From: Sulfurimonas sediminis
GTDB taxonomy: Bacteria > Campylobacterota > Campylobacteria > Campylobacterales > Sulfurimonadaceae
Reading direction: 5' to 3'
Assembly: GCF_014905115.1 (NCBI RefSeq)
Contig: NZ_CP041235.1
Coordinates: 1,178,001-1,242,000 of the forward strand
Length of the DNA: 64,000 nt
Shown here: positions 8,976-13,037 of the stretch, in pieces
Layout of the letters: each line of letters starts with the position of its first letter
Numbering within the stretch: position 1 is the stretch's first letter
Translations under genes and position numbers: made by a program
Notes under the pieces: generated by a model
Seen by the model: the letters and a program-made list of their open reading frames with translations, nothing else
The model's database searches: none
Told to the model about the DNA's origin: nothing

Positions 8976-9133
8976 TTAGAGGTGCCCTTCACTGCCATTA
9001 AGTTAAGAAAATTAATGCTTTTTCGGAACCGGTACTTCAGTGCCGGCTGTTGCAATACTCTTGCCACTCTCAGCCCGGACTGAAGTCCGCGTTCCAAAAA
9101 AATGCTTAACTTAATGGCATTAGAGGTGCCCTT
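8976..9133. repeat. MITE-like element with perfect 15-bp terminal inverted repeats and flanking direct repeats
   Basis: TGCCATTAAGTTAAG at 8993-9007 is the exact reverse complement of CTTAACTTAATGGCA at 9105-9119. Both are flanked by the direct repeat TTAGAGGTGCCCTT (8976-8989 and 9120-9133). The right direct repeat covers the last bases of yggT. Internally there are two short hairpins (GGTACTTCAGTGCC and GGACTGAAGTCC). No protein is encoded. A degenerate relative lies at 13041-13121. The layout is that of a non-autonomous miniature transposable element with a target duplication. Confidence 0.7.
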
Positions 9134-9410
9134 AATAAAGTATGGACTGTAAAATAACAATAAGAACCTGCAGTGCTATAATGATGATAAGCGGCGCAAA
9201 ATCCAGACCATTCAAATCTGTTCGCATAAATCTTCTTACAAACGCATATGCCGGGCTTGTAACTCTGTGAAGAAACTGCACAACAGGGTTGTATGGATCA
9301 GGATTCACAAAACTCAGCAGTGCCGCAATAATAATCACCCAGATATAGACATTTATAAGCCCTATAAAAATCCCGCCAATCCCCTGTATAATTTCAACTA
9401 ATGCACTCAT
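9132..9410 (-). CDS. YggT family membrane protein
   Basis: 92 residues with two long hydrophobic segments separated by NPDPYNPVVQFLHRVTSPAY, which is the signature loop of the YggT (PF02325) family of small inner-membrane proteins. Its function is poorly defined; relatives are linked to osmotic stress and cell-division-associated gene clusters. The ATG overlaps the stop of the upstream GluRS-like gene (ATGA), so the two are translationally coupled. Its 3' end coincides with one direct repeat of the adjacent MITE-like element. Confidence 0.88.
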   Translation of the reverse strand: MSALVEIIQGIGGIFIGLINVYIWVIIIAALLSFVNPDPYNPVVQFLHRVTSPAYAFVRRFMRTDLNGLDFAPLIIIIALQVLIVILQSILY

Positions 9411-10672
9411 TTGATAATCTCCTTCAGATAGTTTTTCAGATATTTATATATTTTTTCAATATCTGGTCCATACTCAGAATTTGTAAGAAGTATACGCAAC
9501 GGTTTTAAAAAGTTTTCACCTTTGAGCCCTGTTGTATCCATAATATAGTTTTTAAAATCATTATACTCTTCAAAGTAGGGTGCGTTTTTAATCGCTTTTG
9601 TCATTAACTCTAGCTCTTTTTCAAATCCATACACTGCTTCTCTTTTTGCAAAGATAGGAGCAATTTTTTCTTTCAACTCTTTTGTCGTTCCCGCCTCTTC
9701 AAGATAAATGCGTGTAAGTTCTCCTATTTCCGAGTCAGCAAATCCTACATAACGAGATAACTCTGTTGCATCCAGATTTTTTAAATGCTCTTTGTTGATT
9801 TGTGTTAGCCTATCTTGATCAAAACGGACAGGATTATCTGCAAGTTTGTCCAGGTCGAACCATTTTGTTGCTTCTTTGAGTGTAAAAATCTCTTTTGGAG
9901 GATTAGTGCCGATTGATATTAAATAATTTGAAATAGCTTCGGGTAAATATCCTTCCTCTAACAGCTGTTTTACACTGACACCGTTTTCTATACCGTGTAA
10001 GTGGGCATACTCTATCTCTTTGTTATATTGGAGCTGATTTCTTACATGTACCTGTTTTGGTGTATTTTTGAGATATTTTTCATCACAAATAATCATTGAA
10101 ACATCACTCAGCATATCATCCACCGCACAGGCAAAATCATAGGTAGGTGTTTTATCGTGATTCATAATCACAAAACTGTCAACAGTATCAGGCTCAAAAC
10201 TGATTGCACCTTTAAGCCGGTCTTTTACAATGACCGGTGCATCAGGACGTACTATTCTTACGGTAAAAGGAGCTGTGTTATCAATGACCAGTTCAGCAGG
10301 AAGATTTCTGCATGCATCATCATAATGGTACTCTTTTTTCGCTTGTTCTGCCTCACTGCGCTTTTTTTGTAACCATTCATCAGAACAAAAGCAGGAAAAA
10401 GCTTTTTTCTCATGCAAAAGTTGCAAAGCCATAGCCGAATGAAAACGAAGGTTTTGGCTTTGGTGTACTACATGAGAATATTCAATCCCAAAAAGTCCTA
10501 AAATATCCAAGATTTCTTGGTCTTTATTTTGTATAACTTTTTCTTTATCTAAATCTTCTATTCTTACGATAAAGTCTTCATTTTTTTGTTTTGATGCAAT
10601 GTAGTTTAAGAGTGCAATTCTCAAATCATTTATATGCATATCTCCAATAGGGCTGGATGCAAATCTTAGCAT
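9407..10672 (-). CDS. GluRS2-like protein lacking catalytic motifs
   Basis: 421 residues from ATG 10672 (AGGAATATTA before it), shorter than the roughly 439-residue GluRS2 I remember from Helicobacter. Overall the sequence follows class Ib glutamyl-tRNA synthetase: start MLRFASSPIGD, RIEDLDKE, and a conserved C-terminal anticodon-binding half. The catalytic signatures are lost. HIGH/HIGN is HIND (GDMHINDLR); the RGEDH element before NTPKQ is CDEKY; and KMSKR is deleted, with EYAHLHGIENG running directly into VSVKQLLEEGYLPEAI. It is therefore unlikely to activate glutamate. The frame is intact and it overlaps yggT by 4 bp. It may be a degenerating or repurposed GluRS2 made redundant by the neighbouring GlnRS. 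Confidence 0.85.
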   Translation of the reverse strand: MLRFASSPIGDMHINDLRIALLNYIASKQKNEDFIVRIEDLDKEKVIQNKDQEILDILGLFGIEYSHVVHQSQNLRFHSAMALQLLHEKKAFSCFCSDEWLQKKRSEAEQAKKEYHYDDACRNLPAELVIDNTAPFTVRIVRPDAPVIVKDRLKGAISFEPDTVDSFVIMNHDKTPTYDFACAVDDMLSDVSMIICDEKYLKNTPKQVHVRNQLQYNKEIEYAHLHGIENGVSVKQLLEEGYLPEAISNYLISIGTNPPKEIFTLKEATKWFDLDKLADNPVRFDQDRLTQINKEHLKNLDATELSRYVGFADSEIGELTRIYLEEAGTTKELKEKIAPIFAKREAVYGFEKELELMTKAIKNAPYFEEYNDFKNYIMDTTGLKGENFLKPLRILLTNSEYGPDIEKIYKYLKNYLKEIIK

Positions 10673-10781
10673 TAATATTCCTAGATAGTTTTTTTGTAAT
10701 TTTAACAAAGTTTTGATTAATTATAAGCTCTTGTTGGATAAAATACTTCTCACAAGTACCTACAAAAAAGGTTTAGCAATA

Positions 10782-13037
10782 ATGAAGAACAAGAAAAAAG
10801 ATTTTTTACGAACGATAGTTGAAAATGATTTAAAATCAGGCAAATACAAAGAGATAGTAACAAGATTTCCACCTGAACCCAACGGTTTTCCGCATATCGG
10901 ACATGCCAAGTCCATATCTATAAATTTTGGTATTGCCCGTGATTATAACGGTCACTGCAACCTGCGAATGGATGACACCAATCCGACAAAAGAAGATACA
11001 AAGTATGTAGAAGCTCTTGAAGATGCCGTAAGATGGCTTGGATTTGACTGGGGTGAAAATCTGTACTTTACCTCTGATTATTTTTCCCAGATTTATGATT
11101 ATGCGGTGCAGCTTATTAAAATGGGCAAAGCCTACGTTGACAGTCTGAGCGAAGATAAAATTCGTGAATATAGAGGTACTGTTACACAACCTGGAAAGCG
11201 CAGTAAATATGCAAACAGAAGTGTTGAGGAAAATCTCGATCTTTTTGAGAGAATGAAAAAGGGCGAATTTAAAGACGGTGAACATGTTTTACGGGCAAAG
11301 ATAGATATGGGTGCAGCCAATATGAAAATGAGAGACCCGCTGTTATACCGCATAAGACATGCACATCACTTTAGAGCAGGGGATGCGTGGTCAATCTATC
11401 CTATGTATGATTTTGCACACTGTCTGTCTGATTATATAGAAGGTGTCACGCATTCGATTTGTACCTTGGAATTTGAAAACAATCGTGATATTTACGACTG
11501 GGTTTTAGATACACTTGCGCTCAAACCGCCCCGTCCCTATCAGTATGAATTTGCCAGACTCAACATCAACTATACAGTGATGAGTAAAAGAAAACTTTTG
11601 GAACTGGTAGAAGGTGGCTATGTAAACGGCTGGGATGATCCGCGCCTGCCTACGATTGCAGGGTACAGAAGGAGAGGGTACACACCGGAGTCCATTTTAA
11701 ACTTTTGTGAGCAAATCGGTATAGCAAAAGCAAACTCTGTGGTTGATGTTGCACAGCTTGAATTTTCTATACGCGATGACTTAAATACAAAAGTTCCTCG
11801 TGTTATGTGTGTAATGGATCCTTTAAAGGTCACAATTGTAAATTATGAAGGTTCTGAGGAGATTGAGGCACCATACTACCCACATGATGTTCCAAAAGAG
11901 GGTTCAAGAAAGATTCCTTTTTCAAAAGAACTTTATATCGAACGGGCAGACTTTGAAGAGAATCCGCCTAAAGGCTATTTCCGTCTTACCCCCAAACAGC
12001 CTGTAAGACTCAGACATGGCTATATCATTACATGTAAAGAGATTATCAAAGATGCCAATGGAAATATTGTCGAAATAAAAGCACAATATTATCCTGATTC
12101 CAAAAGCGGTACGAAAGATACAAGCGGCATCAAAGTAAAAAGTGCCATTCAGTGGGTGAGTGCGGCAGAGGCAAAAAAAGTCGAGATCCGTCTGTACGAC
12201 AGACTGTTTAAAACTGAAGCGCCGGAGGGAATTGAGGACTTAAATCCAAACTCTTTACAAATCATTAAAAATGCGCTGATTGAACCTGCTGTGATACTTG
12301 AAAAACCGGATGAGCGGTTTCAGTTTGAGAGACAAGGCTATTTTTATACTGATCCGGTTGATTACAGCGATGCGCACCCTGTATTTAACAAAATTGTCGG
12401 ACTGAAAGACTCCTGGGCGAAAAAAGAAAAACCAAAACAGCAGACGACACAGCCGAAAGTCAAACAGGTACAGATAGACGGTGAAATAACACCTATGACA
12501 GAAAAGCAAAAAAAAGTATTTGAAAAATATACAGATACGCTGAAACTCAACAATGAGGTGGCAAATACACTGGCCCGTGATGCCTTTCTCTGTGACTTTT
12601 TTGAAGAGGCACTCTCTACATGTAACGCTCCTGTCACGCTTTCAAACATTGTAGTCAATGAAGTAGCCAGAGTGCTTAAAAATACAGATGCAGAGGCGCT
12701 GAAATTCAGCCCAGTGCATATAGCACAACTGGCAAAAATGATTGAAGAAGATATCATCTCAAGCAAGATTGCCAAACAGGTGTTTGAGGATATGTCAAAG
12801 AGTGGAGAAAACCCGACGCAGATAGTTGAAGCAAAAGGGCTGGTGCAGATCAGTGATCCGGCTCAAATTTTACCTGTTATTGATGAAGTGATTGCAAACA
12901 ATCCTGACAATGTGGCAAAATACAAAGCAGGAAATAATAAGCTGTTTGGGTTCTTTGTAGGACAGGTATTGAAAAAGACAGGTGGCAAAGCAAATCCTAA
13001 AATTGTAAATGAGCTTGTAAAACAAAAATTGATATAA
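10782..13037 (+). CDS. glnS: Glutaminyl-tRNA synthetase fused to a YqeY/GatB-like tail domain
   Basis: 751 residues from ATG 10782, which follows AAAAAAGG; an upstream in-frame ATG at 10713 has no ribosome-binding site. Residues about 1-550 are a standard GlnRS: PPEPNGFPHIGHAK (HIGH), MDDTNPTKE, and VMSKRKL (KMSKS-like) at about 267. After a Lys/Gln/Pro linker (KKEKPKQQTTQPK) comes a C-terminal helical region of about 190 residues matching the YqeY/GatB tail (AQLAKMIEEDIISSKIAKQV, FFVGQVLKKTGGKANPK). The same architecture is known in Deinococcus GlnRS, where the tail aids tRNA-Gln binding. It makes Gln-tRNA directly, bypassing the GatCAB route. Confidence 0.95.
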   Translation: MKNKKKDFLRTIVENDLKSGKYKEIVTRFPPEPNGFPHIGHAKSISINFGIARDYNGHCNLRMDDTNPTKEDTKYVEALEDAVRWLGFDWGENLYFTSDYFSQIYDYAVQLIKMGKAYVDSLSEDKIREYRGTVTQPGKRSKYANRSVEENLDLFERMKKGEFKDGEHVLRAKIDMGAANMKMRDPLLYRIRHAHHFRAGDAWSIYPMYDFAHCLSDYIEGVTHSICTLEFENNRDIYDWVLDTLALKPPRPYQYEFARLNINYTVMSKRKLLELVEGGYVNGWDDPRLPTIAGYRRRGYTPESILNFCEQIGIAKANSVVDVAQLEFSIRDDLNTKVPRVMCVMDPLKVTIVNYEGSEEIEAPYYPHDVPKEGSRKIPFSKELYIERADFEENPPKGYFRLTPKQPVRLRHGYIITCKEIIKDANGNIVEIKAQYYPDSKSGTKDTSGIKVKSAIQWVSAAEAKKVEIRLYDRLFKTEAPEGIEDLNPNSLQIIKNALIEPAVILEKPDERFQFERQGYFYTDPVDYSDAHPVFNKIVGLKDSWAKKEKPKQQTTQPKVKQVQIDGEITPMTEKQKKVFEKYTDTLKLNNEVANTLARDAFLCDFFEEALSTCNAPVTLSNIVVNEVARVLKNTDAEALKFSPVHIAQLAKMIEEDIISSKIAKQVFEDMSKSGENPTQIVEAKGLVQISDPAQILPVIDEVIANNPDNVAKYKAGNNKLFGFFVGQVLKKTGGKANPKIVNELVKQKLI

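Follow-up and report, generated by a model that had tools for sequence, protein, structure and literature searches.

The window, a stretch of 64,000 nucleotides from Sulfurimonas sediminis, carries an altered gltX2 gene that overlaps yggT and lies divergently beside a gene for GlnRS. The features of the locus are as follows.

9132..9410, minus strand: yggT, with a 4-nt overlap with the gltX2 stop
9407..10672, minus strand: altered gltX2, encoding a putative GluRS2 pseudo-synthetase of 421 aa (NCBIfam TIGR00464)
9407..9769, minus strand: anticodon-binding region, about residues 302-421, with the ELSRYVGFAD..IGEL helices conserved and the tip relaxed
9977..9991, minus strand: junction of an 11-residue in-frame deletion (KMSKR loop gone), residues 228-232, IEN/GV
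10073..10087, minus strand: RGEDH changed to CDEKY, residues 196-200
10310..10393, minus strand: zinc/acceptor-binding (CP) insert with C94, C96, Y117 and C121
10625..10636, minus strand: HIGN changed to HIND, residues 13-16
10673..10781, no strand: divergent intergenic region between gltX2 and glnS, 109 bp
10782..13037, plus strand: glnS, encoding GlnRS with a C-terminal YqeY/GatB-tail domain, HIGH and VMSKRK intact, 751 aa
13205..13279, minus strand: tRNA-Glu(UUC), convergent with glnS

The gltX2 frame runs from an ATG at 10672 to the stop at 9407 with no internal stops, and the glnS ORF from a probable ATG at 10782 to 13037. As the sequence-only reading had described, the GlnRS-YqeY gene adjoins gltX2 divergently, with about 110 bp between the two starts. 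Divergent gltX2 and glnS starts in other genomes are usually about 97-220 bp apart, and in three (G014, G121 and G016; loci L102, L103 and L105) glnS is found 1.8-3.4 kb upstream of the altered gltX2 with other sequence between. A second tRNA-Glu(UUC), low-scoring and quite different, sits inside a tRNA cluster (G000:C1:1588360-1588432, L245). Family searches, on which our genome-wide statements about the host rest, identified three class-Ic enzymes in its genome (one contig, 2.32 Mb): the altered GluRS2, a GluRS1 with intact motifs (HIGG, KLSKR) and the intact GlnRS-YqeY. Both gatB and a catalytically intact second gltX are present in this genome.

Translation and alignment bear out the earlier description of an intact frame with altered HIGH and RGEDH elements and a deleted KMSKR loop. 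The window GluRS2 reads MHIND for MHIGN and IICDEKY for IRGEDH, and in the KMSKR-loop region EYAHLHGIEN---GVSVKQLL stands in place of an intact stretch of 29 residues. Its closest relatives, G011 (92% identity) and G073 (87%), likewise have HIND, CDEKY or CHEKY and the same 11-residue deletion; since these relatives share the motif changes and the deletion, the sequencing error that the earlier reading had kept in play was ruled out. The protein is a GluRS2 orthologue, with E-values down to 1e-263 against GluRS2 versus about 1e-40 for GluRS1 and with yggT downstream. It lacks GluRS catalytic motifs of the HIGH, RGEDH and KMSKR type, yet TIGR00464, an NCBIfam equivalog, calls it a glutamate--tRNA ligase despite their loss (309.3 bits against a cut-off of 289.95); because a motif-less protein is accepted in this way, automatic annotation would mislead. 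The protein does not qualify as a GluQ-RS (YadB), scoring 135.6 bits against a cut-off of 276.7, with the anticodon region present and the motifs lost, nor as a pseudogene product, the gene having no stops and an omega of 0.11. It does resemble HisZ-type proteins in its synthetase fold, lost catalytic residues and retention under selection. Judging from its motifs, the protein is probably catalytically inactive.

The distribution of motif loss was examined at two levels. In the genus sample, 135 Sulfurimonas genomes were searched for GluRS2, GlnRS (by its anticodon-domain family) and GatB. The GluRS2 sequences of 365 aa or longer number 109; the three motifs are complete in 34, a gap at the KMSKR loop is found in 68 and point changes in 7. 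Counting full-length GluRS2, altered forms occur in 70 of the 72 GlnRS-containing species versus 5 of the 37 that lack GlnRS, an association whose Fisher p of 5.7e-20 is an overstatement because the tips share ancestry. Four of the five GlnRS-lacking exceptions are metagenome-assembled genomes (MAGs), 74-94% complete, in which glnS may just be missing from the assembly, the absence of GlnRS being uncertain in fragmented MAGs; the fifth (G131) has a single change from KMSKR to KMSKQ. The two GlnRS-containing species with intact GluRS2 motifs, G132 and G025, also have an intact GlnRS. Partial loss with unchanged loop length was found in G057, G009, G065, G115, G109 and G096, and intermediate states include HIGD/RDEDH/KMSKR in G057, EIGKR in G009 and KMSNK in G115.

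The order-wide sample comprised 299 genomes, each at least 90% complete, and a GlnRS match was present in 107; GluRS2 from other genera was read from 61 genomes with such a match and 15 without. GluRS2 is altered in 57 of the 60 other-genus genomes with a genuine GlnRS (the exceptions are G314, G249 and G350) and intact in 15/15 lacking GlnRS. In the 61st genome, G340, the one GlnRS match belongs to a different type and is broken: it is 42% identical to the window GlnRS, and its aligned span contains 15 stops. GluRS2 is intact in this genome, which provides the reverse case in which a working GlnRS is absent and the motifs are not lost. The broken locus (G340:C171:6800-10600, L224) represents either a decayed gene or contamination. 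In families f14 and f16 and in genus g41 of f13 there was no GlnRS match, and only a GluRS1-like match (about 1e-40) was found; a non-discriminating GluRS may perhaps charge tRNA-Gln in these genomes. Species without GlnRS retain the three motifs with few exceptions, and an intact GlnRS nearly always goes with their loss; the connection drawn earlier, that a GlnRS may make the indirect route unnecessary, is thus matched by an association that holds across the order.

The number of losses was estimated on a tree of 185 GluRS2 sequences from which the motif columns had been removed, by counting maximal altered-only clades under the assumption that motifs are not regained. This yielded 26 losses with no support threshold, 19 when branches below an aLRT of 90 were collapsed and 14 when those below 95 were collapsed. 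By this count the catalytic motifs of GluRS2 appear to have been lost at least 14 separate times in GlnRS-gaining Campylobacterota. The GlnRS tree intermixes sequences from different families, for example G350 with G109, a pattern that fits horizontal spread.

Loss of the motifs has not generally been followed by loss of the gene. In the order sample 91 of 106 GlnRS-containing genomes keep GluRS2 (about 86% retention) and 15 are without it; within the genus it is missing from 7 of 82, three of these seven being at least 90% complete. Among the GluRS2 matches listed, internal stops are absent save in one weak extra match of 25% identity in G229, a genome that also has an open GluRS2. Close clades were chosen for estimating omega because saturation affects deep branches. 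For the four altered genes of the window clade omega was estimated at 0.110, indicating purifying selection among relatives, with a lnL of -3274.5 versus -3480.2 at omega 1 (kappa fixed at 2); five further altered clades gave 0.054-0.160 and four intact clades 0.023-0.039. Omega of altered GluRS2 is therefore about 3-5 times that of intact GluRS2, and a model with omega = 1 is over 60 lnL units worse, and hence rejected, in 6/6 altered clades. The gltX2 genes of G000 and G011 differ by a dN of 0.038 and a dS of 0.343, and in a neutral simulation 0 of 400 frames remained open at 0.1 substitutions per site, several stops having accumulated by then. Selection on altered GluRS2 thus appears weaker than on the intact enzyme, yet is clearly present. 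The suggestion of recent decay is accordingly rejected, given an omega of 0.11 in a clade made up entirely of altered genes and neutral frames that are lost well before the observed divergence, while a new role, in the sense of non-catalytic retention, gains support from the selection acting on the altered gene.

Selection is unevenly distributed along the protein. Alignment of 80 altered proteins revealed 26 invariant columns, including the zinc-type cysteines C94, C96 and C121, with Y117 above 90%, and in a set of 95 altered proteins some 60 columns reach 90% conservation or more. The zinc/CP block of residues 73-144 has the lowest omega in 6/6 altered clades (0.027-0.084) and in the pooled set. 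The ELSRYVGFAD..IGEL helices are as conserved as in intact enzymes and the C-terminal tip (KG, LR, GPD) is relaxed. The proposal that the anticodon-binding half is conserved therefore holds for the first helical anticodon-binding subdomain but not for the tip residues, and the lowest omega sits in the zinc/acceptor-binding insert rather than in that half. The AlphaFold model of the window protein (pLDDT 94, pTM 0.89) has the predicted fold of a complete GluRS, and its best PDB matches are all GluRS, including 3al0_C of the Thermotoga maritima transamidosome. Altered GluRS2 lengths drift to 372 aa and below. The most eroded members have either lost the anticodon-binding domain and kept the zinc insert (G168, G266 and G354; L230, L231 and L232) or lost the zinc insert and kept the anticodon domain (G361, G183, G218, G329 and G207; L236, L238, L239, L240 and L241). 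Since separate lineages have lost separate modules, no module is universally required, and the idea of one tRNA-binding module as the conserved core was discarded.

The persistence of GatCAB was considered as a reason for keeping the altered gene. No asnS was found above cut-off in 42 genomes and GatB is present, so GatCAB would still be needed for Asn-tRNA. AsnRS was found in none of 18 GlnRS-containing genomes that lack GluRS2, and GatB in 17 of them, which indicates that the altered protein is dispensable to GatCAB and that any role there is at most auxiliary or replaceable. The same state, AsnRS absent and GatB present, thus occurs with and without GluRS2, and the presence of GatCAB alone was ruled out as the explanation. 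In the host, tRNA-Gln and tRNA-Asn begin with U1-A72, and tRNA-Glu and tRNA-Asp with G1-C72; the GluRS2 of Helicobacter pylori recognises tRNA-Gln through acceptor-stem identity elements, U1-A72 (PMC9976931).

Taken together, these observations are best explained if GluRS2 lost a catalysis made redundant by GlnRS and was kept as a non-catalytic pseudo-synthetase for an ancestral side function, an account to which we give about an even chance of being right. In this account GlnRS would charge tRNA-Gln directly, rendering glutamylation by GluRS2 superfluous, and the ATP/KMSKR machinery would have been lost because that glutamylation was no longer needed. GluRS2 would be retained through another function predating the arrival of GlnRS; intact and altered genes occupy the same position beside yggT, a hint that the function is old and not a recent gain. 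By keeping its acceptor-binding side, the altered protein may serve as a scaffold or checkpoint that binds tRNA or GatCAB, with the GatCAB partner still required for Asn-tRNA, AsnRS being absent. That altered GluRS2 has some non-catalytic function, of whatever kind, is in our judgement highly probable. The likeliest candidate role, put forward tentatively, is that of a transamidation scaffold or checkpoint which binds the U1-A72 acceptor arms of tRNA-Gln and tRNA-Asn alongside GatCAB. More broadly, it seems likely that Campylobacterota GluRS2 has an unrecognised, aminoacylation-independent second function that is exposed whenever a horizontally acquired GlnRS removes the need for catalysis. 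A counterpoint to this explanation is provided by the three species of other genera and two of the same genus that have GlnRS and intact GluRS2 motifs.

The main competitor holds that GlnRS makes GluRS2 redundant and the gene slowly decays, shrinking until it is gone. The raised omega, the shortened proteins and the 15 GlnRS-containing genomes without the gene are what such decay would leave, but the matches listed are free of stops (bar the weak extra one in G229) where the neutral simulation accumulates several, all six altered clades reject omega = 1 and some 60 columns stay conserved, and we regard slow decay as unlikely. It is also conceivable, at rather longer odds, that the altered protein acts in trans-editing, recognising tRNA-Gln and stripping glutamate from Glu-tRNA-Gln mischarged by GluRS1, thereby guarding Gln codons. 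A study cited in PMC8406222 (Huot 2011) states in its title that excess Glu-tRNA-Gln is hydrolysed by the H. pylori GluRS2 within the transamidosome of that species, and the acceptor-binding insert is where omega is lowest; however, hydrolysis may require the active site lost here, and the insert itself is gone in some members. Conversion into a new enzyme with another substrate, like GluQ-RS or EpmA, is favoured by the invariance in 80 altered proteins of Arg3 and of Arg37 in RIED, which we take by homology to lie near the glutamate pocket. To our knowledge, catalytic synthetase paralogues use ATP to activate amino acids, and in the altered GluRS2 proteins HIGH has degenerated together with KMSKR, each lineage in its own way, which makes a new enzyme quite improbable.

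Two further possibilities involve the neighbouring genes. The frame might be kept only in cis, to sustain translation of the overlapping yggT, and of 115 relatives in which the pair could be scored, 88 indeed have the 4-nt overlap. Under such a role the upstream amino-acid sequence would be expected to vary freely, yet every domain shows an omega far below 1 and the three zinc cysteines never vary, so we consider it very improbable. Lastly, the working enzyme could be GluRS2, with GlnRS non-functional. A 2014 analysis found 6 of 10 Epsilonproteobacteria to have both GlnRS and GluRS2, listed Sulfurimonas autotrophica and Arcobacter nitrofigilis among the species with GlnRS and proposed, from a patchy GlnRS and a constant GluRS2, that GlnRS is non-functional in those species; the part of that article drawn on here makes no mention of GluRS2 motif loss (PMC3927822). 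Against this suggestion, ten GlnRS genes (the host's and nine others) are full length with HIGH kept, nine of them also show MSKRK (for the tenth, G249, the pattern search halted at a different site) and it is GluRS2 that has lost its motifs instead. An inactive GlnRS was set aside in view of these apparently intact motifs and hardly deserves credence; the sequences favour the reverse of the 2014 guess, with GluRS2, not GlnRS, as the silent partner.

Repurposed synthetase relatives usually arise after duplication. Here the disarmed protein is an unduplicated orthologue; it appears to have lost its motifs at least 14 times, on each occasion together with acquisition of the same gene, and has mostly been kept, amounting to a natural replicated experiment that separates the catalytic from the non-catalytic work of one synthetase. 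This points to a hidden GluRS2 function, also where GluRS2 remains an active enzyme, turns round a published guess on which enzyme is silent and shows that an NCBIfam equivalog model admits a motif-less protein as a glutamate--tRNA ligase. In our literature search no previous account of motif loss in GluRS2 came up, and a 2022 review of duplicated synthetases gives, for GluRS, YadB alone as a paralogue function (PMC9437257).

Comparison with known systems places the altered protein closest to the intact GluRS2 of Campylobacterota, such as the tRNA-Gln-specific H. pylori enzyme that partners GatCAB in a transamidosome. The two are orthologues with the same yggT-side locus and zinc cysteines and share about 60-68% identity within the genus, but the altered form is without the three catalytic motifs and is essentially confined to GlnRS-containing genomes. 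The GluRS of the T. maritima glutamine transamidosome (PDB 3al0) is similar to the modelled structure (TM-score 0.80 by query length); it belongs to a working glutamylation complex, whereas the window protein is compared through its predicted fold alone. GluQ-RS/YadB is also a GluRS paralogue, and its family is the second-best NCBIfam match of the window protein; YadB, however, is active and consists of the catalytic domain only, whereas the window protein retains the anticodon region and has lost the ATP motifs. HisZ, a HisRS paralogue and regulatory subunit of ATP phosphoribosyltransferase, similarly uses a synthetase fold in a non-aminoacylating role (PMC9734150). HisZ has a known partner enzyme; GluRS2 also differs in that its motifs appear to have been lost at least 14 times. 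Non-catalytic synthetase-like proteins are thus already familiar from HisZ, and this case stands out in that an orthologue has been disarmed repeatedly following a gene gain.
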